From the NCBI RefSeq assembly GCF_021568795.1, contig NZ_JAKGUE010000020.1, positions 1 through 43,247 on the forward strand: a DNA stretch of 43,247 nt. The letters run 5' to 3'. The notes beneath the pieces are model-generated. The model was not told the origin of the DNA. It saw only the letters and a program-made list of their open reading frames with translations, and searched no databases. This DNA is from Dethiosulfovibrio faecalis. Lineage in GTDB: Bacteria; Synergistota; Synergistia; Synergistales; Dethiosulfovibrionaceae. A program made the translations under genes and the position numbers. Shown here piece after piece: positions 13,359-34,100 of the stretch (its first letter is position 1; each line of letters starts with the position of its first letter).

Positions 13359-13359
13359 C

Positions 13360-14145: not shown

Positions 14146-14162
14146 GATTTTCTCGCCGGGGG

Positions 14163-14190
14163 TTGACCTCGTCGAAAAAAGGTATATAAT
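14163..14190 (+). promoter_or_regulatory. Promoter of the cobalamin riboswitch transcript
   Basis: TTGACC (14163-14168), a 16-base spacer and perfect TATAAT (14185-14190), placing the start about 12 bases before the riboswitch P1 stem. Confidence 0.75.
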
Positions 14191-14209
14191 GACCTTCGTA
14201 ATCGATCGA

Positions 14210-14348: not shown

Positions 14349-14437
14349 ACGCGACCCATCCACCCTGCGAGGACTCGGGGTAATCGGCGAGAAACCCGTC
14401 GGCTCACCGGCCGATCGGTTTTATTTCGTTGCGATTC

Positions 14438-14471
14438 AGAGACGTCCTTCAGGGGGCGTCTCTTTTTTTTT
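14438..14471 (+). terminator. Riboswitch-controlled intrinsic terminator
   Basis: AGAGACG(N12)CGTCTCT (14438-14463) followed by about nine T residues. It lies after the cobalamin riboswitch and 20 bases before the CoA-transferase ATG, so readthrough probably depends on the ligand state. The 90 bases between aptamer and hairpin contain further pairing segments that could act as anti-terminator. Confidence 0.8.
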
Positions 14472-14490
14472 CGTGAGAGGAGAACCAAAT

Positions 14491-16008: not shown

Positions 16009-16055
16009 GACCCTTCCTGAGACATCCCCATAGGGATGCAAACTCTTTCCCCATC

Positions 16056-16095
16056 CCCCCTGCCACCCCCAAATGGCAGGGGGTCCCCTTTTTTT
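16056..16095 (+). terminator. Intrinsic terminator after CoA-transferase
   Basis: Ten-bp stem CCCCCTGCCA (16056-16065) with TGGCAGGGGG (16074-16083), followed by TCCCC and a run of Ts. Confidence 0.8.
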
Positions 16096-16105
16096 ACCGA
16101 CGGGG

Positions 16106-16140
16106 GAACCTCCCTTACATTCCTTTACCGTTCCTATAAG
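16106..16140 (+). promoter_or_regulatory. CpxR-box-like repeat and promoter of the cpxP-like gene
   Basis: CTTAC-ATTCC-TTTAC (16114-16128), which reads GTAAAGGAATGTAAG on the minus strand, preceded by GGGAACC (16106-16112). TATAAG at 16135-16140 can serve as -10, putting the repeat over the -35 position as in PhoB/OmpR-class activated promoters. It matches the repeat upstream of the CpxR-like gene (14131-14145) in both motif and flanking block. Confidence 0.6.
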
Positions 16141-16233
16141 GCACCTTGACCTGCCCCGGGCTAGAATGGGGTCACAGCGAAAGAGAGAGCCCCCGAGCGG
16201 GAAGCTTATATCGACAAGAGGAGGAATTCAGAG

Positions 16234-17010
16234 ATGAAAAACGGAAAGAGAACACTGGCTATTTTGGCGGCGGTAGCGGCGGTTACGATCGGTTCGATGT
16301 CGGCGAGCGCCGAGGCTTGGAACGGATGCGGCGGACGGGACCGAGGACATAGGACGCACCACGACGGACAGACGATGAGAGGTTTCGGCCAGGGAATGAA
16401 CCGCTGGGGCGACGATCTGAGCCTGTCGGCGAAGCAGAAACTCGAGATGGGAGAGATAGAGCGCAAGTGGTTCGACGACAACTCGGAACTCGCCAGGAAA
16501 ACAGCCTGGGCCCTGAGGGACTATCGCTACGACCTGTCGGCGGGGAGAAATATAGACGAGGGCAAGGTCGCCGAGATGAAGAAGGACATGGTGGCCCTGG
16601 AGACCAAGAGGATGGAGCTTCATCGCGACCTCTACGGCCTTCTCGACGGGGATCAGAAAAAGCTGGCGGACAAAAGGCACCAGGAAGGCCCCTTCCGTAG
16701 AGGCGACGACGACAGAGGGAAAAGGCCCGGCAGATCCGGCAGGAACGAAGCCGTCGAAAGGGCCAGAGCCGACAACTGGAAGGCAATGGACGCCCTCAGG
16801 GACGAGATCCACTCGGCAATGACAGGCAACGCACCGGCGGACGACCTGGCAGCCCTGGCGGAGAAAAAGGTTGAGATCCGACTTCAGATGATCGAGAACA
16901 TGGGCAAGGAGAGGTTCCAGATGAGGAAGGACTTCACCCCCGGAGACCGGGACGGCTTCGGCCCCGGAAAAGGCGGCGCCGGATTCGACTCGAGGAAACG
17001 CAACGGCTAG
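16234..17010 (+). CDS. CpxP/Spy-like periplasmic protein
   Basis: A 258-residue exported protein: signal peptide 1-26 (SMSASA then EAWN), a Cys/His-rich start (CGGRDRGHRTHH), then highly charged helices. LSLSAKQKLEMGEIERKW near residue 68 resembles the LTxxQ motif region of CpxP/Spy/heavy-metal-sensor proteins, which act as periplasmic chaperones or stress modulators. A second helical unit follows after a basic linker. ATG 16234 has AGAGGAGG at 9 bases. It stands alone between terminators. The operator match to the CpxRA-like operon suggests it belongs to that regulon. Longer than E. coli CpxP (166), so the C-terminal part may be specific to this lineage. Confidence 0.7.
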   Translation: MKNGKRTLAILAAVAAVTIGSMSASAEAWNGCGGRDRGHRTHHDGQTMRGFGQGMNRWGDDLSLSAKQKLEMGEIERKWFDDNSELARKTAWALRDYRYDLSAGRNIDEGKVAEMKKDMVALETKRMELHRDLYGLLDGDQKKLADKRHQEGPFRRGDDDRGKRPGRSGRNEAVERARADNWKAMDALRDEIHSAMTGNAPADDLAALAEKKVEIRLQMIENMGKERFQMRKDFTPGDRDGFGPGKGGAGFDSRKRNG

Positions 17011-17023
17011 AGAGTAGATAACA

Positions 17024-17063
17024 AAAAGCAGCGGGCGCCTAAAATCGGGCGCCCGCTGCTTTT
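17024..17063. terminator. Bidirectional intrinsic terminator
   Basis: A 16-bp perfect stem (17024-17039 with 17048-17063) with A/T ends, placed between the converging cpxP-like gene and chemoreceptor gene. Confidence 0.85.
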
Positions 17064-17077
17064 ATCCTTATCTTTAT

Positions 17078-19108
17078 CTAGCTGTCCTTCTCCGACGGGA
17101 CAAGCCCCGTTTCACCCTTCCTCAGCTTGAAACGACTCAACATCTCCTCCAAACTCTTGGCGTCGTAGGCCAATCGTTCCGACTCCTTGGAGACCCCGTC
17201 GGAAGCCCTGAAGGTCTCCTCCACCGTAGAGAGGATGCGCTCCATCCGCTCGGCCACACCCCTGGTTCCCTGAGAGACCTTCTCCACCGAGTGCTCCATC
17301 TCCTGGGCGGACGCGGCCTGCTCCTCCGCTCCGGCCGCCACGTTCTGCATGGCCTGGTTTACCATTCCCACCGCCTGGAGGGTTCGATCCAGACGAGACT
17401 GGGCCACCGAGGCCCTCTCGGACGTGGACTCCAGAGATTCGGCGGAACGGCGACTATCCTCCATGGACTCTCGGGATTTTTCCTTCAGATCCTCTATAAG
17501 ACCGCCGACCTGCTGCGCCGCCTGGTTGCTCTCCTCCGCCAGCTTTCGGACCTCCTCCGCCACTACCGCGAAGCCTCGACCGGCATCTCCCGCTCTGGCG
17601 GCCTCTATGGCGGCGTTGAGAGCCAGAAGGTTCGTCTGGTCGGCTATAGCCGTTATTGTGGCGACGAAACCGGCCATATCCTCCACCGAACGGCCCAGAC
17701 TCTTCATGGTATCCATGGCCTCCTTGGAAGCGGACGTAACGGTCTTTATCTCCTCGATAACCCTCTCTACCTCCGCCACTGCCTCCTCGGCGGTGGACCC
17801 CATGGTGGTGGCGGCCTCGGCGCCCTCGGTGGCGGCGGAAGCCACCGAGGTAGCGCTGGCAGCCACCTCCTCGATACCCCCGTTGATCTGCCCGAGGGAA
17901 TCGGAGTTCTCGTCCGCCGATCGGGACGTGTCCTCTACCAGCCCCTTGGCCTCGTCCATGGCGGCCCCGGCCTCGCCGGAGTACTCGCTCAGGGCAGCCG
18001 CCGATGAAGTGAGATCGCCGACGGAACGGTCTATTATCGACAGCAGGCCGTTCAGCTCGTCCACCATATGGTCCATATCGGAGGCCAGATCGCCGAACTC
18101 GTCGCTCTGGGATACGTCGGAACGAAAGGTCAGATCGCCCTGGGCCATCGCTCGAGCCAGATTCGTCATGGGCCCGAGAGGACGAAGTATCCTCTTGACC
18201 ACCAAGGCCACCGCAATCATGGCGAGAAGCAGTGCGGCGATGCCTATTCCGGCGGTAACGGCAAGAATATGATTTCTAACGCCGTTCAAGGCCGCTACGG
18301 AGAGACCGGCGAAGGATATCCCTACGACCCGGCCGTCGCCGCCTTTTATGGGCTCGTAGGCCGTAACGTAAGGTATGCCCAGTATGGAGGCGGGACCGGT
18401 AAAGGAGCGTTCCTCCTTAAGCAGGATATCGGCGATCTTCGGATCCAGAGAGGTCCCGATCACCCTTTTGCCGTCCTTCACTATGGTGGTCATGAATCTC
18501 TTGTCTCCCAGAAATATGGTGACGTCCACCTTGAACAACCTCTTAGCCTCGTCCACGAAAGCCATATCGTCCATCCTTATTCCGGCGGACACAACGCCTA
18601 CGACCTTTCCTCCGCTGAAAACAGGAGCCCCCGCCCTGGCGGAGAAGGGAATCGCGGAACCTCTCTCAAGCGCCCAGGAAGCCTTTCCACCAAGAGCTGA
18701 GGCCACGTTGGACTGGTTCGACACCGAATCGCCGAGGCGGTCGGGCGAATGGGTCCTAGCCAAGACTACGCCCTTCGCATCGGTCACCGTGGCGAAGTCC
18801 AGATTCAGCTCCGCGAGGATAGGCGAGACCACCCGAACGATATCCTCCGTCTTCCCGCCGTCTATGGCCTCGGCCAGATCCGGTCTGTACGACAGAGCGA
18901 GAGCCCCGTCCATAGCCCTCTTTCCGGCGGCCTCCATGGAGTTCAGAAGCCCCATGGCCCCGGCCACCGCCTGCTCCTCCGCCTGCTCAACGAAGGCGTT
19001 CGAGAAAAGCCTCCAGGCCGGGACAGCCACGGCGATAACCACGATCAGCAGAATAGGCACCATGGTGAGGCCTATTTTTTTCCCTACAGACAAACGAAAC
19101 CCCTTCAA
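17078..19108 (-). CDS. Methyl-accepting chemotaxis protein with Cache-type sensor
   Basis: A 676-residue chemoreceptor: TM1 at about 12-32, a large periplasmic region with Cache-like features ([38 protein letters not shown]), TM2 near 283-305, HAMP ([21 protein letters not shown]), and the signalling hairpin with the invariant tip [26 protein letters not shown]. Such receptors bind small organic acids or amino acids outside and control CheA inside. The frame opens with TTG at 19108, 11 bases after AGGAG; no in-frame ATG with a better site exists. It is monocistronic here; no che genes are in the window. Confidence 0.92.
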
Positions 19109-19272
19109 AAAAAGCCATCTCCTTCTACCAATTTGGTATTACTTAATAGATTACATTGTACAGGAGACGACGAAAATAGCCGGACTATTCGAGAAGGGAT
19201 ATCGAATCGATCTGACAGTGACTTTTATATCGGTCGAGGGAGCATTTAAGCCCAGTTAAGAAGAACCTCCCT

Positions 19273-19314
19273 AAAAAAGCCCGCCCTGCGCGGAATCGCA
19301 GGGCGGGCTTTTTT
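19273..19314. terminator. Intrinsic terminator after YbaY-like gene
   Basis: An 18-bp perfect stem (19273-19290 with 19297-19314) with A6/T6 ends; its right arm touches the stop codon of the YbaY-like gene. It serves the minus-strand gene. Confidence 0.8.
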
Positions 19315-19718
19315 CATCTCACCGATCTCAATTTTATCTCGACAGGACCGTCGTCTTTCGGCATGGGAACCGGGTCCTTCGTGACGAACAACAGCTCTCC
19401 CGTGCCGTTCTCTATTCTGGCGGATAGGGAATAGATCAACCCCTCCGATATCGTCTTTTCCCTGTAAAGCAGCTCGAAGGGAAGAGGGACCTGTTCTCCC
19501 TCCAAAATTCGAGACACCGACGCCACGGGAATCCTGGATCCGTCCTTTTCCTCCGATAGAACCACTATAAGACGACATCCATCGGGAAGGGCTATCCTCT
19601 CCCTGTAAGACGCCGTCCCCAAGACGGATCGGTGATCGTAAAGCTCCGCGGCGAAAAAGACCGCCACGACCAGCAACGTTAAACCGACGACCATCGCCAA
19701 GGTTTTCTTCAAGTTCAA
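19314..19718 (-). CDS. YbaY/YscW-like small secreted protein
   Basis: A 134-residue protein with an N-terminal hydrophobic signal or anchor (residues 5-25) and one domain. GTASYRERIALPDGCRLIVVL, then VASVSRILEGEQVPLPFELLY and YSLSARIENGTGELLFVT follow the YbaY/YscW (PF09619) pattern (G.v.yrer.aLP..a.l.V.L; q.p.pf.l.y; y.v.a.i.dg..l.f). Family members are small envelope lipoproteins or chaperones of unclear function. No Cys follows the signal, so it is not an obvious lipoprotein. The start is TTG with AGGAG at 9 bases. Single gene. Confidence 0.6.
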   Translation of the reverse strand: MNLKKTLAMVVGLTLLVVAVFFAAELYDHRSVLGTASYRERIALPDGCRLIVVLSEEKDGSRIPVASVSRILEGEQVPLPFELLYREKTISEGLIYSLSARIENGTGELLFVTKDPVPMPKDDGPVEIKLRSVR

Positions 19719-19800
19719 GCGCTCTCGCTCCTCTCTCGTTTATCTCCATATATTATCACGAGGTAACCTCAGGATAAAAACTTCGGATCGAGAACGGGGT

Positions 19801-19832
19801 AAAAAAATCGGCGGAGAACAGCTCCCCGCCGA
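19801..19832 (-). terminator. Terminator of the CHAT/DUF4384 operon
   Basis: On the minus strand the hairpin TCGGCGGGGAG/CTCCGCCGA (19832-19808) is followed by seven Ts (19807-19801), about 45 bases after the stop of the last gene. Confidence 0.75.
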
Positions 19833-19876
19833 AAGAAAGACACCATGGAAAAGCCTTTAGAACTAGGAGCTAGAAA

Positions 19877-21052
19877 TCACAGATTCTCGCCTTGCTCCTG
19901 TATGTCCTTCAACAACTCCGCCTGTACATCTCCGTCTATATAGCTCAACTGAAGACTGCCGGAACCGTCCAGCCCCACGCTGGCGAACATCCATACAGTG
20001 TATCCGTCCACCAGCCAGGCGGCCTCTAGGGAAATACCATACCTCCTGACCATATCGGGGGCTCCGTATTTTCCCGACAGAGCATCCACCATCCCGGCGA
20101 ACTGACTGTATATCCAGGTAAGAGGAGCTCTGGTATCTTCGTAGGTCACCAATCCCGACACCCGGTAGACCAGCCCCTTATATTCCTCGACGGCAAAGAC
20201 AGCCTCTCCGTTTTTCATGAGGAAACCAGGAAGAGGGTTGTCGGGGAACTCGAAAACGGAGAACTCCACACCGTACTGGTTGGCCCCGTCTCCTCTATAG
20301 CAGACTATACCGTCGGACTCCAGCTTGGCTATCTCCTCCTCGGCGGAGACTCCCAGGGTTATCCCCCAGATGGCGGCCTTTTTAGAGGCCTTTTCCTTTG
20401 GCTCAGCCTCCTGAGCCAGCTCGGCCTGACGATCTATGACGTCCTTGGACTCCTCCTCAACCGCCGGATCCTCCTTGGTCTGAGCCGAAGCGACCTCGAC
20501 ATCCGAGAGGACCTGAGCCGTGTCCTCTACCAGAGAGTCCGCCTCCGATCCATCCATAGACCTTATCCTGGCCACAGTAGCATCGAAACCCTGTCTATCT
20601 CCCAGAAACGCCTGAGCCCAGGCGATTCCCTTAAGACAACGAAGAACCAGCTCGTCGTCCTGCGGAGACAGATCGATGGCTCCGTTAAAGGTCTCTATAG
20701 CCCTAGCGTAAGCCTCCGAGCCCAGCAAGGTCTCGCCGAGCCCCACCGTGGCCCAACTGCCCTCCTCGCCGGGCAAGACGGCCAGCGCCCTATCGAATCT
20801 GGCCTCGGCGCTTTTCCAGTCTCCCAGATATCTGAGACACCAGGCCGAAAAATCCAAAGACGTTCCGTCCTCCGGTTTTTCCGACAACACCCTGTCGAAA
20901 AGGGTCAGGGCCCCCCGGTAATCCTGAACCCTGTAGAGATTCTGGGCCCTCTCCCTGAGTTCATCGACGCCGGCCCAAAGAGGAGTCGCGCTTAAGATCA
21001 AAATGCCGCAGAGCCACAGTTTCAGCCCTTTTTTAAGAGATTTCACACCCAT
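19877..21052 (-). CDS. Exported TPR protein, paralogue 1 of the CHAT operon
   Basis: A 391-residue protein with a signal peptide (GILILSATPLWA then GVDELRER). Residues 27-150 hold about three TPR-like units (NLYRVQDYRGALTLFDRVLSEKP; WKSAEARFDRALAVLP; YARAIETFNGAIDLSP), then an acidic/basic linker, then a C-terminal domain of about 150 residues with YGAPDMVRRYGISLEAAWLVDGYTVWMF. Both the TPR part and the C-terminal domain are clearly related to the protein encoded two genes upstream (22104-23279). Last gene of a five-gene operon, 11 bases after the DUF4384 gene, with no strong ribosome site, suggesting coupled translation. No enzymatic motif seen; a scaffold or adaptor is likely. Confidence 0.75.
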   Translation of the reverse strand: MGVKSLKKGLKLWLCGILILSATPLWAGVDELRERAQNLYRVQDYRGALTLFDRVLSEKPEDGTSLDFSAWCLRYLGDWKSAEARFDRALAVLPGEEGSWATVGLGETLLGSEAYARAIETFNGAIDLSPQDDELVLRCLKGIAWAQAFLGDRQGFDATVARIRSMDGSEADSLVEDTAQVLSDVEVASAQTKEDPAVEEESKDVIDRQAELAQEAEPKEKASKKAAIWGITLGVSAEEEIAKLESDGIVCYRGDGANQYGVEFSVFEFPDNPLPGFLMKNGEAVFAVEEYKGLVYRVSGLVTYEDTRAPLTWIYSQFAGMVDALSGKYGAPDMVRRYGISLEAAWLVDGYTVWMFASVGLDGSGSLQLSYIDGDVQAELLKDIQEQGENL

Positions 21053-21063
21053 AGGTTCGAGGT

Positions 21064-22077
21064 CTACTCTTCTATCAGAACCTTGAGGGACAGGTCCATC
21101 TCGGTTCCGTCTTCGCCTGCCAGGTAGGCCGTGATAGTATCGAGCCCTACGGGAGTGGAGGGAACCAGTTTAAACTTATGCTCCTTGCCCGGCAGAATGA
21201 CGATACTTCCGGGATTTACATTGAGAGTCGTTCCCTCGGGAAGCAGATCGTTGTGCTTGCCGCTAACCCCATCGTTGACCACCTTGACCACCGTGCAGGG
21301 CATATTGCTAGAAAACTTGAGGAACATAGGCTCACCCGTGAGGAAATTATCCCTGTCGAGCCACATCTTGGCTACCCATCCGTCCTTCTCTGCGACGCCG
21401 AAGCCTCCCTTTTCATCGGACTCGCCTCTGGTGTGAATGGACAAAGCGACGGCATCCCATTCCAGGGGTTTATCGCTATTGACCTCTTCCTCCTCCTCTA
21501 CCAGAAGGATATCTCTGGTGGCCGCCTTGGCATCCTTGATGGAGGAAAAGGGTCCCATGATCTCCTCGTTCTCCTCGTCTATGACCTTGGTCTCCTGGTT
21601 GGTGGCTATGGCCTTGATGACGTCCGTACCGGCGGGACCTCCCACCTTGAGGGAAAACTTCTGCCCCTTGGCCGGTATCGCTATCTCCTGCCCCGCCTTG
21701 ACAAAACCGTCGGTCATCCACTTATTTGGGAACAGCTTGTAGATGCTTCCGCTGGGGGTGAAATCCAACACGGTCAGATAGCAGTCCTTCTCCGCCTTGA
21801 AAAAGACCGTCATCTTGTCGCCGATATCGTAGACATCGCCCTTCTCCGACCGATCGGACCAGAGCTTCAGGCCAAGAGGATCTCCTTCCGACGCCATCTC
21901 CTCCATCTGGAGCTTAGCCTCGGCGTCCTCTCCCTCCTCCGAATCCTCCTCTACCAGGACTATATCTCTCGTAGCTCCCGACTCTTTGGAGCGAACGTCC
22001 GCAGAGGCCACCCCGAAGGAGACCACACACAGAGCACATATCAACCCTAAAATAACCAAGAACCTAGACTTACTCAT
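21064..22077 (-). CDS. Exported protein with two DUF4384-like domains
   Basis: A 337-residue protein with a signal peptide (residues 1-26, ending GVASA). It has a repeated layout: an acidic segment opening with ATRDIVLVEE (35-44), a DUF4384-like beta domain (about 68-160, with YDIGDKMTVFFKAEKDCYLTVLDFTPSGSIYKLFPN), a second acidic segment ATRDILLVEE (186-195), and a divergent second domain (about 206-330). DUF4384 domains often accompany caspase-like or CHAT proteases and kinases and may act as adaptors or substrates. I chose ATG 22077, which has GGAGG at 9 bases; the ATG at 22083 is only 3 bases from it. It lies between two paralogous TPR genes. Confidence 0.75.
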   Translation of the reverse strand: MSKSRFLVILGLICALCVVSFGVASADVRSKESGATRDIVLVEEDSEEGEDAEAKLQMEEMASEGDPLGLKLWSDRSEKGDVYDIGDKMTVFFKAEKDCYLTVLDFTPSGSIYKLFPNKWMTDGFVKAGQEIAIPAKGQKFSLKVGGPAGTDVIKAIATNQETKVIDEENEEIMGPFSSIKDAKAATRDILLVEEEEEVNSDKPLEWDAVALSIHTRGESDEKGGFGVAEKDGWVAKMWLDRDNFLTGEPMFLKFSSNMPCTVVKVVNDGVSGKHNDLLPEGTTLNVNPGSIVILPGKEHKFKLVPSTPVGLDTITAYLAGEDGTEMDLSLKVLIEE

Positions 22078-22103
22078 ACTCATACACCTCCGCAACAGTT
22101 TTA

Positions 22104-23279
22104 TTAATTGTTTTTTTGGCTATGTATAAGAAAACGACCGAAAATGACCCTATCGGTTACCGCCAACTGAACCTTCACGCTTCCGTCCAACATGACCTCG
22201 ACTCCCAGTCGACCCATTCTGCCATGGGAGACGTGCCAGAGGGCCTCCATCGAAACTCCCTCTTTTTTTATATAAGCGGGATCGCCGTAAAAAGGCTTTA
22301 TCCCTTCCATCGCCTCGTCGAACAAGGTCATACCAGTGGATACGGGATCTTCCCGAACGCCGTAGATCCCCGTCACGGAGACCCTCAGCACCTTGTCCTC
22401 GAACTCGTCCACGACGACCGAAACGGCAGGTTTTCTAGGAATCCATCCATCGCCGGACCAATCGTCGGGAGGGGTTATCCCGTAATAGATAAGACCTTTC
22501 GCGTCGAAGCCGTCGGACCGCTTGGATCTTCCCCCTCTTTTGGAGAGCTCCGCCAACTCCTTGGCTATCGGACTGCCGGGGGAAAAATCGCACGCCAGCC
22601 GATCCGGAAAGGACGACTTGGCCCGATCCGCCGGATCGGGAGCGCTTTCAACCGAAGCTTTCTTCGGCGGAGCCTTCTTGACGGGCTTAGGCTTGGATTC
22701 CTGCTCCCGCACCGTCTTTTTCTCCTTTTTTACCCGTTCCAGAACCGTAGAAAGATCGTTCCTTACGGCCCGAGCCATATCGCCGTTCAGCTCAGAGATG
22801 GCGTTAAGAGCCTTTTCGAACCCTCGATCGTCTCCGGAAAAGGCACAGGACCACACGATTCCTCGAAGAGAACGGAGTAAAAGCTCCTCGTCTTCGGGAG
22901 CCCTGTTTATGGCCTCGGAGAAGGAACTACGGGCTTTATCGTAATCCGCCGCCCCGAGATAGGTCTCCCCCATTCCAACCGCCACCCAGGCGCCGGCCTC
23001 TCCCGGAAGCAGAGGAAGGGCCCGATCGAAACAGGCCAGGGCCTTTTCCCAATCTCCCTGGTACCTATGACACCAACCGGCATAATCCCACACAGCCCCC
23101 TCTTCGGGATTCGCTTCGGCCACCCTCAAAAAAAGGGTCAGAGCTCCTCTGTAGTCCATAACTCTGTAAAGGTTCAGAGCCCTCTCTCTCAGATGGTCTA
23201 CCTCTCCGAAAGAACGGCTCCCCAGACAGAGGGAGATGAGAACCGCCATGGTCAGGGAGCGTTTGACGAGCCCCCTCAT
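22104..23279 (-). CDS. Exported TPR protein, paralogue 2 of the CHAT operon
   Basis: A 391-residue protein with a signal peptide (MAVLISLCLGSRSFG region) and the same plan as the 19877-21052 product: TPR-like units (NLYRVMDYRGALTLFLRVAEANP; WEKALACFDRALPLLP; YDKARSSFSEAINRAP), a Lys/Pro-rich linker, and a C-terminal domain with FYGDPAYIKKEGVSMEALWHVS. ATG 23279 was chosen because it overlaps the CHAT gene stop as ATGA; upstream in-frame codons lie inside the CHAT gene. The coupling implies co-production with the CHAT protease at comparable levels. Function unknown; a partner or regulator of the protease is likely. Confidence 0.75.
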   Translation of the reverse strand: MRGLVKRSLTMAVLISLCLGSRSFGEVDHLRERALNLYRVMDYRGALTLFLRVAEANPEEGAVWDYAGWCHRYQGDWEKALACFDRALPLLPGEAGAWVAVGMGETYLGAADYDKARSSFSEAINRAPEDEELLLRSLRGIVWSCAFSGDDRGFEKALNAISELNGDMARAVRNDLSTVLERVKKEKKTVREQESKPKPVKKAPPKKASVESAPDPADRAKSSFPDRLACDFSPGSPIAKELAELSKRGGRSKRSDGFDAKGLIYYGITPPDDWSGDGWIPRKPAVSVVVDEFEDKVLRVSVTGIYGVREDPVSTGMTLFDEAMEGIKPFYGDPAYIKKEGVSMEALWHVSHGRMGRLGVEVMLDGSVKVQLAVTDRVIFGRFLIHSQKNN

Positions 23280-26200
23280 TTCGACTCTATCTCCCAGGGA
23301 ATCCCCACGTATTTGAGGACCGCCCACCCGGTGGGCTGCTCCCCTCCTTCGAGAACCTGGCGCTTGGATCCATTCAGGGCCTCCGCCGGGGAGACTCCCT
23401 TCGATATGGCAGAATACATGCCTCTCATGATGACTGGGGCGACAGCATCGGGAACGAGCCACCGAGACACCACGACGCCCTGTACTCCACCGGACAGAAA
23501 CACGCTGTTCAGCCCTATCATGCCGTCGCCGACGTAAAGATCTCCCAACCCCGTATCGCAGGCGGATAGCACCACCAGCCGCGACCTCCAGTTAATAGCG
23601 GCCAGCTCGCCCATCTGGGCGAAGGAGTCGTTTTCCCTGTCAGACGCAGGGGACAGGGCGAGACCGGGCTGAAGGAAGGGAATGCTGTGTCTGTCGTATC
23701 CGTGACAGGCAAAGTGGACGTAGCCGTAAGAACCTATATCGGCAGAGGCCATGGCGAACTCCGAGGCGTTCTCGCCCACCAGGCAAGCCACATCGCGACC
23801 GGCCTCCTTCCAGATCGAACTTAAATGGTTAGCCTCTTCTTGGGTTCCATCCAGGGGAGTCATACAGGGACCGGCCCTCAGCCTTACAGCCGCATCTATA
23901 GGACTCTCGGCATCTGAAAGGACCTCTTTAAGCTTTATCTTTTCCTCTTTCCTCGCCCCTCCGAAGTAGAGATATTTTGGATTGGCCACCACCGCGGCTG
24001 AATCGGAACAAGACCTCTCTCCGTAGCTTCCATGAACTATCAGAGACGCGCTGGGAATCTCGGCAAAATTCCAGCCCAGATCCAGCAGATATCTATTTTC
24101 CGATCCATCCTTCGCCACCATGGTCTCGTAGGGATAGAGGAAAAGCACGTCGTGAGGGATAACCAAAATATTCTTGACCTTGCCCAGATGAGCCCTCAGG
24201 GGAGCTAACAGCCATCTCTCGAGATCCCTGCCGTTGAGGCCGAAAATTCTCTGAGAGTCGTTGGTTCGCATCAGGCTGAACTCCTCGGCCTTATCCCTTC
24301 TCATCGTAGTCACGTAGGCAAAGAACAGACTATAGTCCAACTCCAGGGGGACCAACGCCACGGGCCGCCCCTTGCGGATCACGAAGGCAAAGGATATCTC
24401 CGGCGAGATATAGTAGTCGGCCACAGCCCAATCCGAAGGCACCAGATCCTGGATCTGCCCCGTCGTTGGCACCTCCACGGACCCCACGACCGTATGGCCG
24501 GACATGAACTCGTCGAGCTCCTTACGTTTCGACTGAAGTGCGGAGGCATAATCGACCATGGTGCCAAGATCGCCCTTCGAATAGGCCAGCTTGATGCCTC
24601 CCTCGAGGGTAGTCACCTCTCCCTTGAGATCTCTATATACGTCCCTCTCCTCGGGAGACAGCCTGTTCAGGAAGCCCATTCCCGTGGTGGAAAGAAGCTC
24701 CCTCCACTGACGGCTCTTCATGGATTCGAGGGCCCTCCAGACCTCCTCCATATCCTCATCGCTCTTAGTCTCCTGCCATCGCCGATAGGAACTATCTATC
24801 GTCAAGGTATAAGCCTCGAGCCTGTCGGCGGTAGCTCTGGACTCGGTCCCCTCCGCAGGGGAGATGCTCTCTATAACCGAAATGGCATCCCTCAAAAGAG
24901 ACAGACCACCGGCTCTGTCGCCCTTTTCGAACCGGGCCTTGGCGGAGAGGACCGTCGAACGCCAGGCCAGATCGGGGTTGGGAATCGTCCCTGTGGCGGT
25001 CCTCGCTACAAAGCCATATTCTTCCTTCAGGTTGTCCAAAGCCGTCGCGGCCCCCGATGGATCTCCCAGGGAGAGACCCATTTTACGGATGAGCAGATCC
25101 ATAGCCTGACGGTTATCGAAAGACAGGCCACCATGCGCTTTCAGTGTCTCCCGGCATAGCTTCCTCTCTCTACGGATCTCCATCCGGGCCAGAAAACTTC
25201 CCAGGGAGGCCAGCTTTTCCAAATCGTCCTTCAGAGAGTCGAGGCGTTTCCTTCCCTTATCTAGAGCAGGAGGAAACTTTTCAAGAAACTCCTCCATCGA
25301 CGACACAGGCCCGATCCGGACTCCAAGCTCTTTGAGAAGGGCGGCCCTCGTCGCGATATCGTTCCATCGGGCCACCTGATCCACCATCAACTCCGCTCCC
25401 TTTATCTGGCAGATCATAAATGAAGACAGACTCCCCGTATCGGTTCCCAGATCGGAAGAGCTGATCTTCTTTCCCGTTATAGATCGGACCAGATCGAGAA
25501 CGGCCTCGTCCATCCCTTTTTTTACCTCGGGCTTTTCCGACTGCTTTTTGGCCCTGGCTCCGTGATACGACGCCAGCCCCGACCTCACAGAGGAAGGCAT
25601 CGAACGCCCTTCGGACAGATCCTTGACCAAAGATGCCTCGGCCTTTTTGTCCATTCCGAGATAGGACGGTATATGGGCGACCACCTCCAAAGATCCCGCC
25701 AGCTCTTTTGAGCTCTCGTTTTCATACTTGGATTCAGGCTCGTCGCCCTCAAGCATCAGCCCCTCGGTCCGGATAACCATAGGACCGACCGCTCCCGAGA
25801 GAAGCCTCTCGCCAGCCCCTCTTCTGAGAGCGATCCAAAACTGGACCGGGACCTTGCAGCCTTCGCCCTTGAGGCCCCTGATGCCTTGTTCAAGCTTCTC
25901 CAAAACGGACAGCCGACTCTCGGCAAGACGGAACACCCCATCGGCCACGGCAAAGCGGGCAATTCCACCGGTACGGTTCCAACCCAGCATTCGAGAGACA
26001 GCCTCCACCGTCCTGTCCGATCTCAGTATCGACGAAGGCCTGAACCAAAGCTCCGAATTTTTATCCAGTGCCTTCCAATAGGGGGAAAAGAAACGATCCT
26101 TTTTCAACCGCCCTTCCGGCATGGTAAGCCCCTGCCAGGGAACCCCGACCAGAGATCTATAATCCACCTTCCCGGAAAGCCCCAGGTCCTCGCCTCTGGC

Positions 26201-27439
26201 GACCCTGTTGAACCCCAGGGACGCTATGAGGAAGATCTCCATGTCCCCTTGCTCCAGGGAACCTATGATCGCCTCTCTGTAGGAATCCTTGCTTTCGTCC
26301 CACATACCCATGGCGTAGTAGAGATCGGCTATGTTCGTAACGGCCTGGAGATAGCCGTTTTTTAGGCCCTTCTCCTTCGCCAGGTTTCTGCTTCTAAAGT
26401 AACAATCGTAGGCACCACGGTAATCTCCGTCGACTCGAAGCAACCGGCCTCTAGCCTGAAGAGCCATAAACTCCAGGGTCGCCCAGCCGTTCTCCACGGC
26501 CCTCTGCTCCACCGATTTCAGCGTCTCGGCGGCAAAACGAACGTTACCCAACTCTCCCTGAGCCACTACGACGTTGGCATCGACCATTAGCCTCTGTCTG
26601 TCGTCGAAGCTGGACAGTTTCTCGACCTCCTCGAGAGCCCGGGAGTAGGTTTTCTGGCTCTCCTCATAACACCCCAGCTGGTTCAGGGCGTTTGCCCTCT
26701 GGGAATAAGAGCTGAAAAGCAGAATCCTTCCGAGAGCCTCGGTTTTCTTGTCTTTTTTCAACGGCGCAGCTTTGACTATGGCCTCATCGCATATCGCCAT
26801 AGCACCCTTGAAATCGCCGTTTTTCTGGATACAGGCGGCGATCTGGAGCCCCACCCTTACCGAGGCGGAAACGCTGCCCTTAACCAGAGGAACGGCCTTT
26901 TGAAAAAGCTCCGTTGCCCGGCCGATCTGGCCCCTGGTCATGGCGACCTTACCCAACCCCTCCAGGGCCAACCCCTGGAACAAAGTTTTTTTAAGCTTTT
27001 CAGCCAGAGGCTCGGCATCGGCGTAGATTGCCTCGGCCTTCGCCAGATCTCCCTTCCTCAGATAGACCTGTGCCCCCGCTATAAAGGCGTTAAGCTGCTT
27101 ATCGCCCCGTCCTGCCTTCCCGTAGAGGACTCCGGCCCTCTCGTAAGCCTTGGCCTGATCCAGAAGATCCACGCCATCTACCTTTCCGAGACAGAGCCCA
27201 CGGTTATATGAGCAATCGGCGGCGTTGGCCATGTCCTTGCCCTTTTCGTAGGCTTTGGACGCCGAGCCGAAGATCTGGGCCGCCTTGGCGAATTCCTGTT
27301 TCTGATAGAGGGAGATTCCCTTTTTCTTCAGGTCGCCCCCGGAGGAGGCCATGGCGGCGGTCCCCATAAGGAGACCGGCCACCAAGACCATCGACATGAG
27401 CCGGTTAATCCAGCTTAAAGCGAGATAATTCCGTCCCAT
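23276..27439 (-). CDS. Exported TPR-CHAT caspase-like protease
   Basis: A 1387-residue protein. A signal peptide (about 1-31, VLVAGLLMGTAAMA then SSGG) is followed by many TPR-like helical pairs over roughly 35-460 and 800-960, and a C-terminal CHAT domain from about 990. The catalytic pair is His1246 in VHFACHGYD and Cys1294 in VVLSACDTGLGD, the hallmark of CHAT (clan CD) peptidases. CHAT proteins elsewhere include Csx29 (Craspase), activated by protein partners through TPRs. Here the signal peptide places it outside the cytoplasm, unlike the CRISPR-linked enzymes. ATG 27439 follows the upstream stop by 9 bases with only a weak AGGGTAGAG site. Second gene of the operon. Confidence 0.88.
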   Translation of the reverse strand: MGRNYLALSWINRLMSMVLVAGLLMGTAAMASSGGDLKKKGISLYQKQEFAKAAQIFGSASKAYEKGKDMANAADCSYNRGLCLGKVDGVDLLDQAKAYERAGVLYGKAGRGDKQLNAFIAGAQVYLRKGDLAKAEAIYADAEPLAEKLKKTLFQGLALEGLGKVAMTRGQIGRATELFQKAVPLVKGSVSASVRVGLQIAACIQKNGDFKGAMAICDEAIVKAAPLKKDKKTEALGRILLFSSYSQRANALNQLGCYEESQKTYSRALEEVEKLSSFDDRQRLMVDANVVVAQGELGNVRFAAETLKSVEQRAVENGWATLEFMALQARGRLLRVDGDYRGAYDCYFRSRNLAKEKGLKNGYLQAVTNIADLYYAMGMWDESKDSYREAIIGSLEQGDMEIFLIASLGFNRVARGEDLGLSGKVDYRSLVGVPWQGLTMPEGRLKKDRFFSPYWKALDKNSELWFRPSSILRSDRTVEAVSRMLGWNRTGGIARFAVADGVFRLAESRLSVLEKLEQGIRGLKGEGCKVPVQFWIALRRGAGERLLSGAVGPMVIRTEGLMLEGDEPESKYENESSKELAGSLEVVAHIPSYLGMDKKAEASLVKDLSEGRSMPSSVRSGLASYHGARAKKQSEKPEVKKGMDEAVLDLVRSITGKKISSSDLGTDTGSLSSFMICQIKGAELMVDQVARWNDIATRAALLKELGVRIGPVSSMEEFLEKFPPALDKGRKRLDSLKDDLEKLASLGSFLARMEIRRERKLCRETLKAHGGLSFDNRQAMDLLIRKMGLSLGDPSGAATALDNLKEEYGFVARTATGTIPNPDLAWRSTVLSAKARFEKGDRAGGLSLLRDAISVIESISPAEGTESRATADRLEAYTLTIDSSYRRWQETKSDEDMEEVWRALESMKSRQWRELLSTTGMGFLNRLSPEERDVYRDLKGEVTTLEGGIKLAYSKGDLGTMVDYASALQSKRKELDEFMSGHTVVGSVEVPTTGQIQDLVPSDWAVADYYISPEISFAFVIRKGRPVALVPLELDYSLFFAYVTTMRRDKAEEFSLMRTNDSQRIFGLNGRDLERWLLAPLRAHLGKVKNILVIPHDVLFLYPYETMVAKDGSENRYLLDLGWNFAEIPSASLIVHGSYGERSCSDSAAVVANPKYLYFGGARKEEKIKLKEVLSDAESPIDAAVRLRAGPCMTPLDGTQEEANHLSSIWKEAGRDVACLVGENASEFAMASADIGSYGYVHFACHGYDRHSIPFLQPGLALSPASDRENDSFAQMGELAAINWRSRLVVLSACDTGLGDLYVGDGMIGLNSVFLSGGVQGVVVSRWLVPDAVAPVIMRGMYSAISKGVSPAEALNGSKRQVLEGGEQPTGWAVLKYVGIPWEIESK

Positions 27440-27448
27440 GACTCTACC

Positions 27449-28462
27449 CTAAAACGGAGACTTTATCTTGATTCCACCTATGGGAAGGGTAATGCCGCCG
27501 CCACCGCCGCTCATTCCGCCGATCATGCCTCCGAAATCGGGAATGGACAGAGAGGGAACGGAAACCTTCTCTCCAACCAGACCGCCGACCGTCTGAGCAA
27601 AGGGTCCGAAGCCCTTCATGAATCCCTGCATCTGTTTACCGATACCCTCGAAAATCCCCTGGAGACCCTGGAGGGAACTGGCATCCATATTGGGCATTCC
27701 GCCCTTTTGCATCTGGCCGATCAGCCCCTGCATGACCGACTGCATGTTGCCCATGATGGATTCCATTCCGGAAAATACGTTTTTAGCTCCACCGACGACG
27801 TTCTTTTTAAGCAACGCCTTGTCCTCCTTCGCCAGATCCTCGGACTTTATTGACTTGGCCTGAGAATGAGCGTTTTCTATGGCGACATCGGAATTCTTGC
27901 GGATCCCCTCGTTTCTGGCCTTCAACTCGTTGGCCGTAAGAGGCTGATCCTTAAGGGAGTCCACGGCACTCCTCCAGGATGCGTAACAGGCCTCCGAACC
28001 CTTTATGGCCTGAGCGTCCTTTGTGGTGCTTTTTATGAGAGCGACCTCCTCGTCGGTAAGGGCCCTCAACTTCTTCAGAGCTCCTTTAGCCTGGGGAATC
28101 TCCTTTTTGAGCTTGGCCGATAGAGAGGCGACCTGAGAGTCCAGCCCCTCCCTGTGAGCCCCGTAGAGATCCTTCTGGGTCTGGAGAGCCCCGTTTATAA
28201 CGGTGTATTGAGCAAGTTTATCCTTGTGGATCTTATCCATGCTTCTAGCGGCCTTCTTCCCGGCAGCTCCGGACTTCTTCATCTTGGTCTTCTGAACGAC
28301 CATGTTGGTCTCGTCCGCGCCCTGGATCCCCTGAAGCTCCTGGCTTTCCGCCGCAAGGGACGTCTCGTTCTGAACCATGACGTCCATAGCCATATCGGCT
28401 ATGAGGATACCGCATATCAGCACCGTAACCACAATCAACACAACTCTTAGAAACCTGCTCAT
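27449..28462 (-). CDS. Membrane-anchored coiled-coil protein of unknown function, first gene of CHAT operon
   Basis: A 337-residue protein I do not recognise. Residues 5-25 form a hydrophobic anchor or signal (VVLIVVTVLICGILIADM). Residues 30-230 are Lys/Ala/Gln-rich and strongly helical (coiled coil likely). The C-terminal third is Met/Gly/Gln-rich (SIMGNMQSVMQGLIGQMQ; GGMIGGMSGGGGG) and ends in GIKIKSPF. No cysteine pair or enzymatic motif is visible. ATG 28462 follows GGAGG at 6-7 bases. It opens the operon, 9 bases before the CHAT gene. A filament-forming or membrane-tethering partner of the protease is one possible reading, not shown by sequence. Confidence 0.7.
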   Translation of the reverse strand: MSRFLRVVLIVVTVLICGILIADMAMDVMVQNETSLAAESQELQGIQGADETNMVVQKTKMKKSGAAGKKAARSMDKIHKDKLAQYTVINGALQTQKDLYGAHREGLDSQVASLSAKLKKEIPQAKGALKKLRALTDEEVALIKSTTKDAQAIKGSEACYASWRSAVDSLKDQPLTANELKARNEGIRKNSDVAIENAHSQAKSIKSEDLAKEDKALLKKNVVGGAKNVFSGMESIMGNMQSVMQGLIGQMQKGGMPNMDASSLQGLQGIFEGIGKQMQGFMKGFGPFAQTVGGLVGEKVSVPSLSIPDFGGMIGGMSGGGGGITLPIGGIKIKSPF

Positions 28463-28652
28463 ATCGCACCTCCACTATATTTTGATCTACTAATATTTCG
28501 CATTGTAAGATAGTTTTTGTATATACATAAGCTCCATTCGATGTATTGTTGTAAGTTCAAAAAGGCTTCTAAATAATACACCTAAAAAACTCATCGTTAA
28601 ATAGGGCATATACCCTACACGGTTTTCTCCTTTAACCGCCTTCCCGTGACCC

Positions 28653-28681
28653 CTGACATAAGAGTCCCATAAACATATTAC
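28653..28681 (+). promoter_or_regulatory. Candidate promoter of the trypsin-Sel1 gene
   Basis: CTGACA (28653-28658), a 17-base spacer and TATTAC (28676-28681), 65 bases before the ATG. The whole 284-base region (28463-28746) between the divergent CHAT operon and this gene is visibly AT-rich; I found no clear shared operator in it. Confidence 0.4.
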
Positions 28682-28746
28682 TTCGTAAAAATCGGCGGTT
28701 TAGTGTGTTAGTATTTGAGAAATATCGAAGGGAAGGCCGGGATACT

Positions 28747-30549
28747 ATGGTTCGGGTCGAGAAGCTCCTGTCTAAGAGTTACTTTCGTTTCACTTTATGT
28801 CTGCTATGCTGTTTTACGGTCCTCGGAGGGCCCCTTCACGCCGCCGAGATCGACATCCTGGCCCTGATGGAGGAAAGGCAGAGGGCCGTATCGGACATGC
28901 TGGAATCCAGCATCCTCTACGTTTTGGTGGAAGACGACGACTCCTACAGCATGGGCACGGCCTTCGTGGTGGCCGACGGAGTCGCCCTGACCAACGCCCA
29001 CGTCGTGGAATCCGCCGGCGACATCCTGGTAATGAGCTCCTTCCAGAGACCTGTCGAGGCCAGGCTTTTCAAAAGGGAATACAGAGGCGACACAGGAGGA
29101 AACGACTTCGCACTGCTCAAGTTCGCCCCCTCGCCTAAACTGACACCGGTGACCTTCACCAACAGGATAAACCGCATGGACAGAGTCAGCGCCTGGGGTT
29201 TTCCCGTTCTGGTGACCCAGTTCGATCAGAGCTTCGACGACATACTGGAGGGATCTCTTAAAAAAGCCCCTCCCATGGTCTACACCGAGGGAACGGTCAG
29301 CGCCCTGGTAGAGAAAAACGGAGAGAGAACGGTCATCCACTCCGCCGCCATAGCGGGAGGAAACAGCGGCGGTCCTCTGGTCAACGTCAGAGGAGAGGTC
29401 GTGGGCATAAACACCTGGGGATACACCGAGGAGGACGAAGGAGCCTTCGTCAACGCCTCCATCCCCACAGAGAGGATCGTTCCCTTTCTCCAGAAAAGCG
29501 GAATAAGCCCGAGGTTCTCTCGAAACTCTCCCGCCATGCCTCGGGCGTCGCTGCCCCAGATATCGCTGCCTCAGGTATCGTCGCCCCGGATAAACCCTTC
29601 GGATAGCGACCGATTCTCCCAGTCGGAGCTGTCCAGCCTCAGGGAACTGGCCCGATCGGGCGATTCCGACGCCCAGGCCGCCCTGGGAGCCATCTACTAC
29701 GACGGAGAAGACGTCCCCCAGGACACGGGGCAGGCTGTCGAATGGCTGGAGAAAGCCGTCCGAGGAGGAAGCCCGGACGCAAAGGCTCTTCTCGGGGTGA
29801 TACTGATATTCGAGGAGAGCTACAGAGACCCGGCCAGAGGGATATCGCTGCTTAGGGAATCCTCCGGCTCCGACTCGGACGGGGAGATCTTCTCCATGCT
29901 CTCCAGAATCCTCTACGACGGGGAGGTTTTCGGGGTTCCGAGAGACGAAGACGAAGCCTTCAAATGGGCCCAAAAAGCCTCGGACAAAGGCGACTCGGAC
30001 GGAACCGCCATGCTGGCCATGCTCTACTATTTCGGCGAGGGAGTCGACGAAAACGACGCGAAGGCCCTTCAACTGGCCGAAAAGGCGGTAAAAGACGGGA
30101 ACTCCCTGGGGAAGGCTATCATGGCCTGGATGTACTACGACGGAGTCGCAGTCGAGGAGGACCTAGAGACGGCCCTGGCTCTGGCCACCGACGCAGCCGA
30201 GGACGACGAACCGTCCGCTCAGGGCCTGCTGGCCTACATGTATTTCTACGGCTACGGGGTCGAGGAGGATCACGCCGCCGCCGAGGGCTGGGCAAGGAGG
30301 GCGTCGGACCAGGGCAACGAGTTCGGCTGGTTCGTCCTCGGATCGCTGTACATGGAGGGAGCCGCCGTCGAGAAGGACCTCGCCATGGCCTGGGCCTACA
30401 TGGACCTGGCCAACGACAGATACGTCTCCGACGCGGAAGAAGCCCTGGAGGAACTGACCCAAAGGATGTCCTCCAAAGACCTGAAGAGAGGCGGAGAAAT
30501 CCAGAATCGCTGGTTCGAGGAATGGGGGATCTTACGTACCGATCCCTAG
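28747..30549 (+). CDS. Exported trypsin-like serine protease with C-terminal Sel1 repeats
   Basis: A 600-residue protein: signal peptide (about 1-32, ending GGPLHA), a trypsin-like/HtrA-type domain (about 40-265) with complete triad His85 (TNAHVV), Asp120 (GGNDFALLKF) and Ser207 (AGGNSGGPLV), a Pro/Ser linker (270-300), then about seven Sel1 repeats (310-580; for example AQAALGAIYYDGEDVPQD and AMLAMLYYFGEGVDEND). No PDZ domain is present; Sel1 repeats replace it as the binding module. ATG 28747 was chosen over a GTG 42 bases upstream because it follows GGGAAGG and gives a standard signal peptide. Divergent from the CHAT operon, so likely part of the same exported proteolytic module. Confidence 0.88.
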   Translation: MVRVEKLLSKSYFRFTLCLLCCFTVLGGPLHAAEIDILALMEERQRAVSDMLESSILYVLVEDDDSYSMGTAFVVADGVALTNAHVVESAGDILVMSSFQRPVEARLFKREYRGDTGGNDFALLKFAPSPKLTPVTFTNRINRMDRVSAWGFPVLVTQFDQSFDDILEGSLKKAPPMVYTEGTVSALVEKNGERTVIHSAAIAGGNSGGPLVNVRGEVVGINTWGYTEEDEGAFVNASIPTERIVPFLQKSGISPRFSRNSPAMPRASLPQISLPQVSSPRINPSDSDRFSQSELSSLRELARSGDSDAQAALGAIYYDGEDVPQDTGQAVEWLEKAVRGGSPDAKALLGVILIFEESYRDPARGISLLRESSGSDSDGEIFSMLSRILYDGEVFGVPRDEDEAFKWAQKASDKGDSDGTAMLAMLYYFGEGVDENDAKALQLAEKAVKDGNSLGKAIMAWMYYDGVAVEEDLETALALATDAAEDDEPSAQGLLAYMYFYGYGVEEDHAAAEGWARRASDQGNEFGWFVLGSLYMEGAAVEKDLAMAWAYMDLANDRYVSDAEEALEELTQRMSSKDLKRGGEIQNRWFEEWGILRTDP

Positions 30550-30614
30550 CGAATATCGTAATCCAACGTACCGTATCCACCGTATTTCCCCATGTTCTCG
30601 ACCTTGGATCTAAG

Positions 30615-30665: not shown

Positions 30666-31142
30666 ATGTCGATAGGATCGATAGGAAGCACCGTCGAGCA
30701 GCAAAACCCATACTCGGAGCAAGTAAAAAAGGCTCGAAACGAAGAGGCAGAGGGGACGGTCGACGGCACGGCGAAAACGGAACCGGAGGAAAGCGTCGCA
30801 TCGGCCGAAAACCAAGATGAATATATCCCAAGCGATGGCGATCAGGAACGGGCTTCCGGCGTCTATAGGATGGAAAAAGACGAAAACGGCAACTCAAAGG
30901 TTACCGTAGACGCCCCCTCCTCCGAAAAATCATCGTCCTCCACTACGAACACGGACAGCGTCGACGCGGAGATAAAGAAACTAAAGCAACAGAGGGCCCA
31001 GCTTCAAAAACAGCTTCAAAACGCACAAGGAGACGAGAACCAGCGCAAAAGCATAGAAAAACAACTCGCTCAAGTAGAGGCGGAGATAGCGTTCAAGAAC
31101 AGCGACGCCTACAGAAAACAACAGTCTACCTGTACCGCTTAA
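30666..31142 (+). CDS. Small hydrophilic coiled-coil protein, possibly FlxA-like
   Basis: A 158-residue acidic protein. It starts MSIGSIGSTVEQQNPY without a signal peptide, runs through a Glu/Ser/Thr-rich disordered half, and ends in a coiled coil (EIKKLKQQRAQLQKQLQNAQ, then QRKSIEKQLAQVEAEI). The coil resembles the FlxA-like family, linked to flagellar regulons in some bacteria, but low complexity makes this weak. ATG 30666 has GGAGG at 6 bases. Single gene between the protease gene and nrdJ, ended by its own terminator. Function unknown. Confidence 0.6.
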   Translation: MSIGSIGSTVEQQNPYSEQVKKARNEEAEGTVDGTAKTEPEESVASAENQDEYIPSDGDQERASGVYRMEKDENGNSKVTVDAPSSEKSSSSTTNTDSVDAEIKKLKQQRAQLQKQLQNAQGDENQRKSIEKQLAQVEAEIAFKNSDAYRKQQSTCTA

Positions 31143-31198: not shown

Positions 31199-34100
31199 CT
31201 ATTTACAGGGCGAGTAGCCGCAGCTGAAGCAGTACTCGCAGCCGCCTACCATCTCCATGGGAGAGCCGCACTCGGGACACTTGGGAACATCCTTCAACGT
31301 CTCGCCGCCCAGTCCGGAAAGCTTCTCCATGAGGATGGCTATACCGTCCGGGATCGAACGGACGACCCTGTCGTCGTCGCACTCGAAAAGCCAGTACTCT
31401 TTGCCGGAAATGCCCCTCAAAGTGGAGATGAAATCCTCCAGCCTGCCGCCGCTGCGAAGACCTATGGAGATCACCCGGGACAGGGCCTCGGTCATGCTCT
31501 TCATCTCCGAACCGCTCTTGCCCAGAGACGCGAAAACCTCGAAGGGATCGTCGCTATCGTAGTTTATGGTCACGTACATGCTGCCCCAGGGGGTCACGTC
31601 CTTTATCGTCTTGCCGAAAACGATACTGCCCGGACGCTCCTTCACCTTGGAGCTGAGGGGACGCTTTTCCGGCTCGTCGGACTTCTTGGCCTCTATGGGC
31701 TGATCCGACCGGGAACCGTCGCGATATATGGTGATACCCTTGCATCCCATGCGGTAACAGTCCTCGTAGACCTGCCTGACGTCGTCCACCGTCGCCTCCG
31801 AAGGCAGGTTCACCGTCTTGCTGATGCCGCTGTCCACCACGGCGGCGAAGATCCCGGTAACCTCCACGTGGGAATCGGTGCCTATGTCGTAGGCGGTGAC
31901 GAAACGGGGGTCGGAGATCCCGCCGGTGCGGCGGAACTCGTCTTTATGCTCCGCCGTCATCAGACGGTGGAAATACTCCCTCGTCTCGTAGCCTCCGTCC
32001 CCGGTGGCGGACATCACCTTTCTGCTCCAACTCCAGGCGAAATTGGGCTCTATGCCGGGGCTGGCGTCCAGCAACATCGATATGGACCCGGTCGGAGCCA
32101 CGCTGAGACGACGGCTGTTTCTCATCCTGCCGGAGAAAAGGGCCTCCAGCACCTCTCGGACCAGCCCCATCCCGTCGCCTTTGTGAACCGAGGCGGCGCT
32201 CAAAAGGACCTCCAGGGTGTTAACCAGAGTATAGGGAACCGTGTCGGTCCGCCTCATACGCTCCAGCAGCTCCCTGAAACCGCCCTCGTCCATACGCTCC
32301 AGCCAACGATCCACAGCATCGGGCAACCCGGCCTCGCAGCGGAAGCTCTCCATGAGATCCGACACCAGCCGATGCTCCGGGAAGGGATCCTTTCCCTCCT
32401 CAGACACTATCCTGACCGTGGCGGCCAGGGCCGCCGAGGCCATGGTCCCTCCCAGAGAGCGGCAGAACCGGTTGAAACTCTCCGAACCGTAGGAGATCCC
32501 CAGCATTATGGCAGCGTCGGCAAGCCCCATCAGGCCGAGCCCTACGGGACGTATCATCTTGGTGCGATCGGCGATCCGCTCCAGCGGATAGGACGTGGCG
32601 TCTATAACCAGATCGAGATAGTAGACCGACCGAAACACCTGATCCACGAAGGAATCCATGTCGAAGACCGCCTCTCCGCTGGATTCGCTCGACACGAAAG
32701 CCTCCAGGTTAACCGATCCCAGGTTGCAGCTGGTGTAATTAGGCAACGGCTGCTCACCGCAGTTGTGGACGTAAAGCCCGTTGGCGTCGAAGGCGTTTAC
32801 CCCCGGCACCTGAACGTCGAAAACCGCCTCCTCCCCGCAAGCAACCAGGGAATCGAACCGAGCGATAAAACGCTCCCTATTTTGTCTTCGATCATAGCTA
32901 TTTATAGCGTTTTCCAGTTTTAGACTTTTATCTGAGTCCTCAAAACCCACACGAGCCTGGAACCGACTGAGATTATCGTTACTTATCACTAATTCATGTT
33001 GATCTTGGATTTGATAGAGACGACTTCCTCCCTTGCCATCCGGCATGGACCTTAAGTTGGCCTTCCTTCTGTATTTATATATCTTACTGACTATACCTAA
33101 ACGAGCCAACATACGCTGTACGGACTGCAATGTATGTAAGTTACTTTGAGCTAGACGAACGCTAAGGCCTTTTTCCTGAGAACCCTGAACGGAACCATCG
33201 GAATCAAAAAGACCACGAAGAAAACCAGAATAAAACGAGCTGGAAGTTTCTCCTTCAAGGGTAGGAGATATCATTTTATTTCCTACAGACATCCCCAAAT
33301 CCGTGGCAAGCTGTTTTATTGCAGAAGTGGAAAGTCGGAACTCGTCACGTCCAGAAACGGAAGTCCAGCCAGCAAAATCACTTCTATGTTTCAATTTCAA
33401 AGCACAAGATAAAGCCTTATTCATCACGGCATCTTGACCTACAGAATCATCGTTGCTGGCTTTCTCAGGCATCCAAACGGAAAGAACCGCCTTACCGTTT
33501 TTTATAGTGCCATCTCCAAGAAGCAACCCCATAAGGTATCCTTCCGACTCTGTATATCTGCCATTCCAGCCTATAAAATCTCTATGGTTGTTTAAAACCA
33601 AAAGATCGCTTTCGGAAAGATCCGATGCCGGAATCCACTCAAAATCCATGCGATCTCTCGATTTATAGATTACGCGTCTAACCTTATGATCGACGGTTAG
33701 TTTTAGGGAATGTCCTTCCTTGGTCTTCAGCTCGAAAACGGGCTTTACGCCTGTGGAGAAAAAACCCTCCGTTTCGTGCCCCTTGCCGTCCACCAGCAGA
33801 GTCGTCGGCCTTCCGACCAGATTCACCGCCTGCTGGGGTCCCTCGTCGGTCATAACCCAGGTATCTCCGGTAACACACGGATTGGTGGACTCTATGCGCC
33901 ATTGGGGGTCTTTCTTCAGTATGTTGTCCACGTTGGCCCTGTCGCCGAAGAACACGCCGGGATCCCCTCTGCGCCAGGCGTTTCGACACAGCTTATCCCA
34001 CAGATCGGCGGCCTTCACCGTCTTGGCGACGGAACCGTCCGCCCTGGAACGGAGGTTAAAATCCCCTCCCTGGGCTGCCTTGGTCAGAAGCTCGTCCGAG

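Follow-up and report, generated by a model that had tools for sequence, protein, structure and literature searches.

The best-known CHAT proteases are switches that operate in the cytoplasm, in CRISPR immunity and cell death. In Csx29, which is encoded with Cas7-11 (gRAMP) and Csx30 in the Craspase system, the CHAT dyad is brought back into alignment by an allosteric signal and one partner is then cut once, in a flexible loop (PMC10028731, PMC9729208). CHAT is also the bacterial family closest to separase (PMC9729208). The DUF4384 domain has been described in another proteolytic setting, being repeatedly fused to caspase-fold p20 domains in orthocaspases, some of which additionally carry a trypsin domain (PMC6426788, PMC8283722).

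The window considered here, that is, the whole 43,247-nucleotide stretch of Dethiosulfovibrio faecalis DNA analyzed, encodes a protein of Csx29-like layout in which a TPR array is followed by a CHAT protease with a His/Cys dyad; the closest solved sequences are the Csx29 TPR-CHAT chains, at weak similarity (E about 0.01). Whereas Csx29 is cytoplasmic, lacks a signal peptide, and comprises about 700 residues, the window protein has 1387 residues, bears a hydrophobic N-terminal signal that recurs in all complete homologues, and is encoded with unrelated partners; unlike at Craspase loci, there is no Cas gene among the flanking genes of the window that have Pfam matches. No securin-like gene was recognized, and the position that by spacing would correspond to the P1-Arg-binding Asp of separase is Pro or Ala. 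The locus also departs from the orthocaspases, which hold a C14 caspase and DUF4384 in one chain, whereas here a CHAT protease accompanies a separate exported DUF4384 protein. Peptidase_C14 p20 (PF00656) found no Pfam match in any of the six proteins of the locus.

Further likenesses are found on two Alphaproteobacterial plasmids. On Rhizobium bangladeshense p1, exported caspase-fold proteases accompany DUF4384: the cluster encodes a caspase, a trypsin-caspase-DUF4384 protein, and a DUF4384-OmpA protein that is exported. On Pseudosulfitobacter pseudonitzschiae unnamed9, an exported caspase is encoded with a trypsin, a TPR protein, and a CHAT protein that is likewise exported. Unlike the five minus-strand genes described here, these clusters contain trypsin and C14 caspase genes; relatives of the coiled-coil protein are absent from plasmids, and the TRDI motif discussed below is missing from the DUF4384 proteins of Rhizobium. 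The Rhizobium cluster (L113:1-12357) adjoins a serpin gene, possibly encoding an inhibitor. A preliminary description of the locus held that no such system had been described. This stands for the composition itself, as the literature searched contained no counterpart of the five-gene set and no paper joining "CHAT domain" and DUF4384, but it needs narrowing, since the component families are already known and the plasmids carry exported clusters of caspase and trypsin with DUF4384 or CHAT. As judged from sequence comparison, the five minus-strand genes are a co-inherited exported module with a predicted proteolytic function.

Organization of the Locus

Five packed minus-strand genes and one divergent gene had been reported, and the open reading frames of all six were confirmed at their coordinates, with some starts refined. 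In 5′ to 3′ order, the minus-strand genes encode a membrane-anchored coiled-coil protein (CC; 27449-28462, 337 residues), the TPR-CHAT protease (23276-27439), the predicted exported TPR protein TPR_b (22104-23279), the DUF4384 protein (21064-22083), and TPR_a (19877-21052), a predicted exported paralogue of TPR_b. The refined start of TPR_b is the ATG at 23279, which overlaps the CHAT stop by 4 bases, and that of the DUF4384 gene is the ATG at 22083, preceded by GGAGG. Successive gaps measure 9, -4, 20, and 11 bases, and an intrinsic terminator-like hairpin on the same strand (19808-19832; 11 pairs and a T7 tail) follows TPR_a; given this spacing and the closing hairpin, the five genes are read as one operon. 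The divergent trypsin-Sel1 gene (28747-30549, plus strand), with a refined start at the ATG at 28747, is separated from CC by 284 bases.

Beyond the hairpin lies a YscW-like gene (19314-19718), which was rejected as a sixth member because it falls in flanking sequence that is syntenic at 94-95% identity in G040, a genome lacking the module. An all-against-all comparison of neighbors likewise yielded no sixth conserved exported partner, as extra exported genes occur at three loci only. These loci (L044:18-2372, L049:319-2832, and L062:151-2076) share further exported proteins of ~450 and ~160 residues that are absent from the window.

Predicted Export of the Module Proteins

The preliminary description assigned an N-terminal signal or anchor to all six products, and hydropathy bears this out, with a hydrophobic N-terminal segment in 6/6 window proteins. 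Export was called from hydropathy together with conservation of this segment in homologues, where it is retained in 14/15 CHAT, 17/17 DUF4384, 16/16 CC, and 27/27 TPR sequences; the single CHAT homologue without it is N-truncated at a contig end. Synergistota is a diderm phylum, and the module members are most likely extracytoplasmic, with the periplasm as the most likely compartment.

The TPR-CHAT Protease and the TPR and Coiled-Coil Proteins

The CHAT domain (residues 1070-1375) matches PF12770 with E 1.9e-44 and 152.7 bits against a curated cut-off of 24, and the gene is the only CHAT gene of the genome. The catalytic residues named in the preliminary description for both proteases are in place. 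In the CHAT protein, the predicted dyad of His1246 (codon 23702-23704, minus strand) and Cys1294 (codon 23558-23560, minus strand) is invariant in 15/15 aligned sequences, from which activity is predicted. Counting from the catalytic Cys puts Pro or Ala at the P1-binding position, so homology does not predict a cut following the TRDI Arg, and an Arg-P1 specificity derived from D1331 was dropped after positions were counted against the published separase/Csx29 correspondence (PMC9729208).

The structure model of the CHAT domain is poor (pLDDT 57) and too weak to address active-site geometry. Its top Foldseek match is DdvA (E 5e-4), with a SAVED-CHAT filament among the next matches, and from so weak a model these resemblances serve as leads only.

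TPR matches were obtained for three window proteins (Pfam). TPR_a and TPR_b share a C-terminal domain of ~150 residues without a clear family, for which only one of the two gives a weak DUF6301 match. The CC protein, the product of the first operon gene, has no Pfam family match and is marked by a conserved juxtamembrane segment, ELQG(I/V)QGAD. At one locus (L047:130-10321), a CC homologue occurs without CHAT, in an operon encoding FHA, VWA-FHA, TM2-FHA, trypsin-FHA, Ser/Thr kinase-Sel1, and Sel1 proteins, which suggests that a second exported-protease system also makes use of the CC family.

A Duplicated Linker Motif in the DUF4384 Protein

The DUF4384 protein matches PF14326 over two stretches (E 3.9e-30; 104.2 bits against a curated cut-off of 27), and its AlphaFold model (pLDDT 74) places two beta-sandwich domains (residues about 72-170 and 205-339) after the signal peptide. 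The sequence ATRDI(V/L/I)L, with acidic residues after it, appears twice, once after the signal peptide (TRDIVLV, residues 38-44; 21952-21972, minus strand) and once between the two domains (TRDILLV, residues 189-195; 21499-21519, minus strand), as located by alignment and model. The first copy (TR.I) is present in the window protein and all homologues listed, and the second in all but one divergent second gene (L109). The two motifs average 0.88 and 0.86 in conservation, above the folded domains (0.73 and 0.66) and the linker sequence that directly follows each motif (0.54 and 0.38), and each motif is inside or at the border of a segment modeled with pLDDT <50. Elsewhere in the genome, DNA patterns for TRDI match twice: one match falls within the gene of an MBOAT-like membrane protein, the other on the noncoding strand of a mutase gene. 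Because the motif is short, near-invariant, duplicated, situated in flexible linkers, and part of a protein co-encoded with a protease, it is most simply taken as a candidate site at which the CHAT protease docks or cuts.

The model also invites a structural reading, in which the module builds a scaffold or adhesin-like assembly at the surface or envelope, with CHAT processing a structural partner as the assembly forms instead of responding to a signal. The resemblance of the DUF4384 model to tandem Ig/FnIII-like extracellular proteins such as RbmA and GbpA is in keeping with such a role, as is the finding that Pfam detects a cytoplasmic output domain in no member. Yet the fold matches are those of a generic beta-sandwich with low TM-scores, and Pfam recognizes no cell-wall or outer-membrane anchoring domain in the window proteins; we regard this alternative as unlikely.

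Conservation of the Module across Synergistota

The preliminary description had named co-occurrence in relatives as the check on its grouping. Among 151 Synergistota genomes, CHAT is found in 10, CC in 13, and DUF4384 in 12, and both DUF4384 and CC are present in 10/10 CHAT genomes (Fisher p 5e-14 and 2e-13, respectively), adjoining the CHAT gene at complete loci. The additional genomes with CC or DUF4384 include three (G104, G112, and G148) whose loci are cut by contig ends, and G006 is the only genome with CC in a clearly different setting. At complete loci, the CC, DUF4384, TPR, and CHAT genes, in some cases with a further TPR gene, lie adjacent on one strand in shuffled order: CC-CHAT-TPR-DUF-TPR in the window, DUF-CC-CHAT-TPR with a single longer TPR protein in one genus, CC-DUF-TPR-CHAT-TPR at several other loci, and DUF-TPR-CHAT-CC-TPR at L048. 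A set that stays constant while its order changes suggests functional coupling. The pairwise identity matrices of CHAT, DUF4384, and CC also correlate (r 0.84-0.89, Mantel p 1e-4), which is what genes passed on together should show, although shared ancestry alone could produce it. These profile counts cover Synergistota; a scan of named genomes, conducted with narrow peptide patterns, recovered the module in Synergistaceae and Synergistales genomes, mostly MAGs.

The Trypsin-Sel1 Neighbor

The divergent gene encodes a protein with a Trypsin_2 domain (4.1e-21) and Sel1 repeats (Pfam), complete with the triad His85/Asp120/Ser207; in PADLOC it matches other trypsin-type proteins, for instance RT-Protease_XI. 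The preliminary description counted it in the set and envisaged a six-gene cascade in which the trypsin-Sel1 and CHAT proteases act in sequence outside the cytoplasm. Its divergent position next to the CHAT operon and the predicted export of both proteases lend this some plausibility, and analogous pairings exist, namely the operon in G006 in which a CC homologue is encoded with trypsin-FHA, FHA/VWA, and kinase-Sel1 proteins, and the exported caspase and trypsin clusters of Pseudosulfitobacter and Rhizobium. The distribution of the gene argues strongly the other way. It adjoins the module in the window and at no other module locus, and its close orthologues, found in 8 genomes of which 2 have the module (co-occurrence p = 0.09), reside in differing, unrelated neighborhoods. 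Those of G051 and G081 (81% identity, same genus) and of G030, G043, G122, and G119 (57-63%, the G119 copy being partial) are in genomes without the module, and G105 has its module on another contig. These contexts speak against membership; on the evidence of comparative genomics, the trypsin-Sel1 gene is a bystander, and the cascade appears highly improbable.

Genomic History and a Possible Role in Defense

Among the relatives sampled, the other 5 genomes from the genus and 6 from the family have no copy of the module. In G040, a close relative, window positions 7904-19834 are matched on one contig at 94-95% identity and positions from 30580 onward on a different contig, leaving unmatched a stretch of about 19835-30579 that is almost exactly the module plus the trypsin interval. 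Simple insertion at one site was set aside because the flanks lie on different G040 contigs, and a rearrangement may have contributed; the module could have been gained by transfer accompanied by rearrangement, or lost elsewhere. Carriage by phage or plasmid was discounted, as no relative of the module occurs in the viral contigs scanned and none of CC in plasmids. There is no tRNA in the window.

Several features of the flanks deserve mention in their own right. To the left, at 11955-17010, are genes for a CpxP/Spy-like LTXXQ protein and an OmpR-type two-component pair, which probably are unlinked to the module, being in the G040-syntenic part. To the right, just past the synteny break, a small FlxA-like coiled-coil protein (30666-31142) adjoins a reductase gene in G040 too. 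This gene encodes a ribonucleotide reductase (31199-34894) whose intein bears a LAGLIDADG endonuclease; the intein is shorter in G040 and G052, where ~240 residues are missing at the endonuclease position, and G105 lacks it.

Patchy distribution is one of the observations that would fit a role in conflict or defense, with the module as the exported branch of an immunity or killing system built on caspases. Craspase contains a CHAT protease, and proteases of this family are also linked to bacterial gasdermins (PMC10028731, PMC9729208), and DdvA, the best match of the low-confidence CHAT model, is a transmembrane anti-sigma factor of Myxococcus whose partner sigma factor DdvS controls a phage-defense island (PMC12288465, PMC4374960). 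The module itself includes no anti-sigma or sigma gene. The system-specific models of PADLOC gave no defense-specific match, with module proteins matching generic TPR models only, and none of the genes nearby was recognized as encoding a toxin, pore former, nuclease, or Cas protein. Combined with the lack of viral-contig relatives, these results make a defense role quite unlikely. Pfam shows no family of the gasdermin kind in the neighbors, among which CC, having no family match, may still be a remote relative. The preliminary description had also entertained envelope stress or killing as the function, for which no evidence was found.

A Model for the Module

The reading we favor, with a probability of roughly one-half, is that the products of the five minus-strand genes form a single protease complex outside the cytoplasm. 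It builds on the Csx29-like layout and the closest solved sequences, transposed to proteins that are exported and have different partners. In such a complex, TPR-CHAT would be a caspase/separase-like cysteine endopeptidase acting beyond the inner membrane, with the periplasm as its most likely site, and CC would anchor the assembly at the inner membrane. TPR_a and TPR_b would act on the large TPR region of the protease, either as adaptors or as inhibitors, and the DUF4384 protein would be the most likely docking partner or substrate, the ATRDI(V/L/I)L linker before each of its Ig-like domains being bound or cut by the CHAT protease. As in Csx29, the protease would be turned on by a signal that reaches its TPR part. 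We infer here the formation of the complex, its exact location, the identity of the substrate, and the trigger.

A more specific form of this model, which we advance tentatively as a possibility, is a self-contained extracytoplasmic caspase-type switch, in which the exported separase-like protease recognizes the twin motif of its co-exported DUF4384 partner and thereby releases or rearranges that partner upon an envelope signal. If this switch operates as envisaged, it would be, to our knowledge, the first described CHAT protease system wholly outside the cytoplasm. Through the twin motif, it can be tested directly whether a co-encoded partner is a substrate or a docking protein, an opportunity that most bacterial CHAT proteins do not offer. 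As a co-inherited exported unit of Synergistota, the module would carry CHAT protease chemistry outside the cytoplasm.
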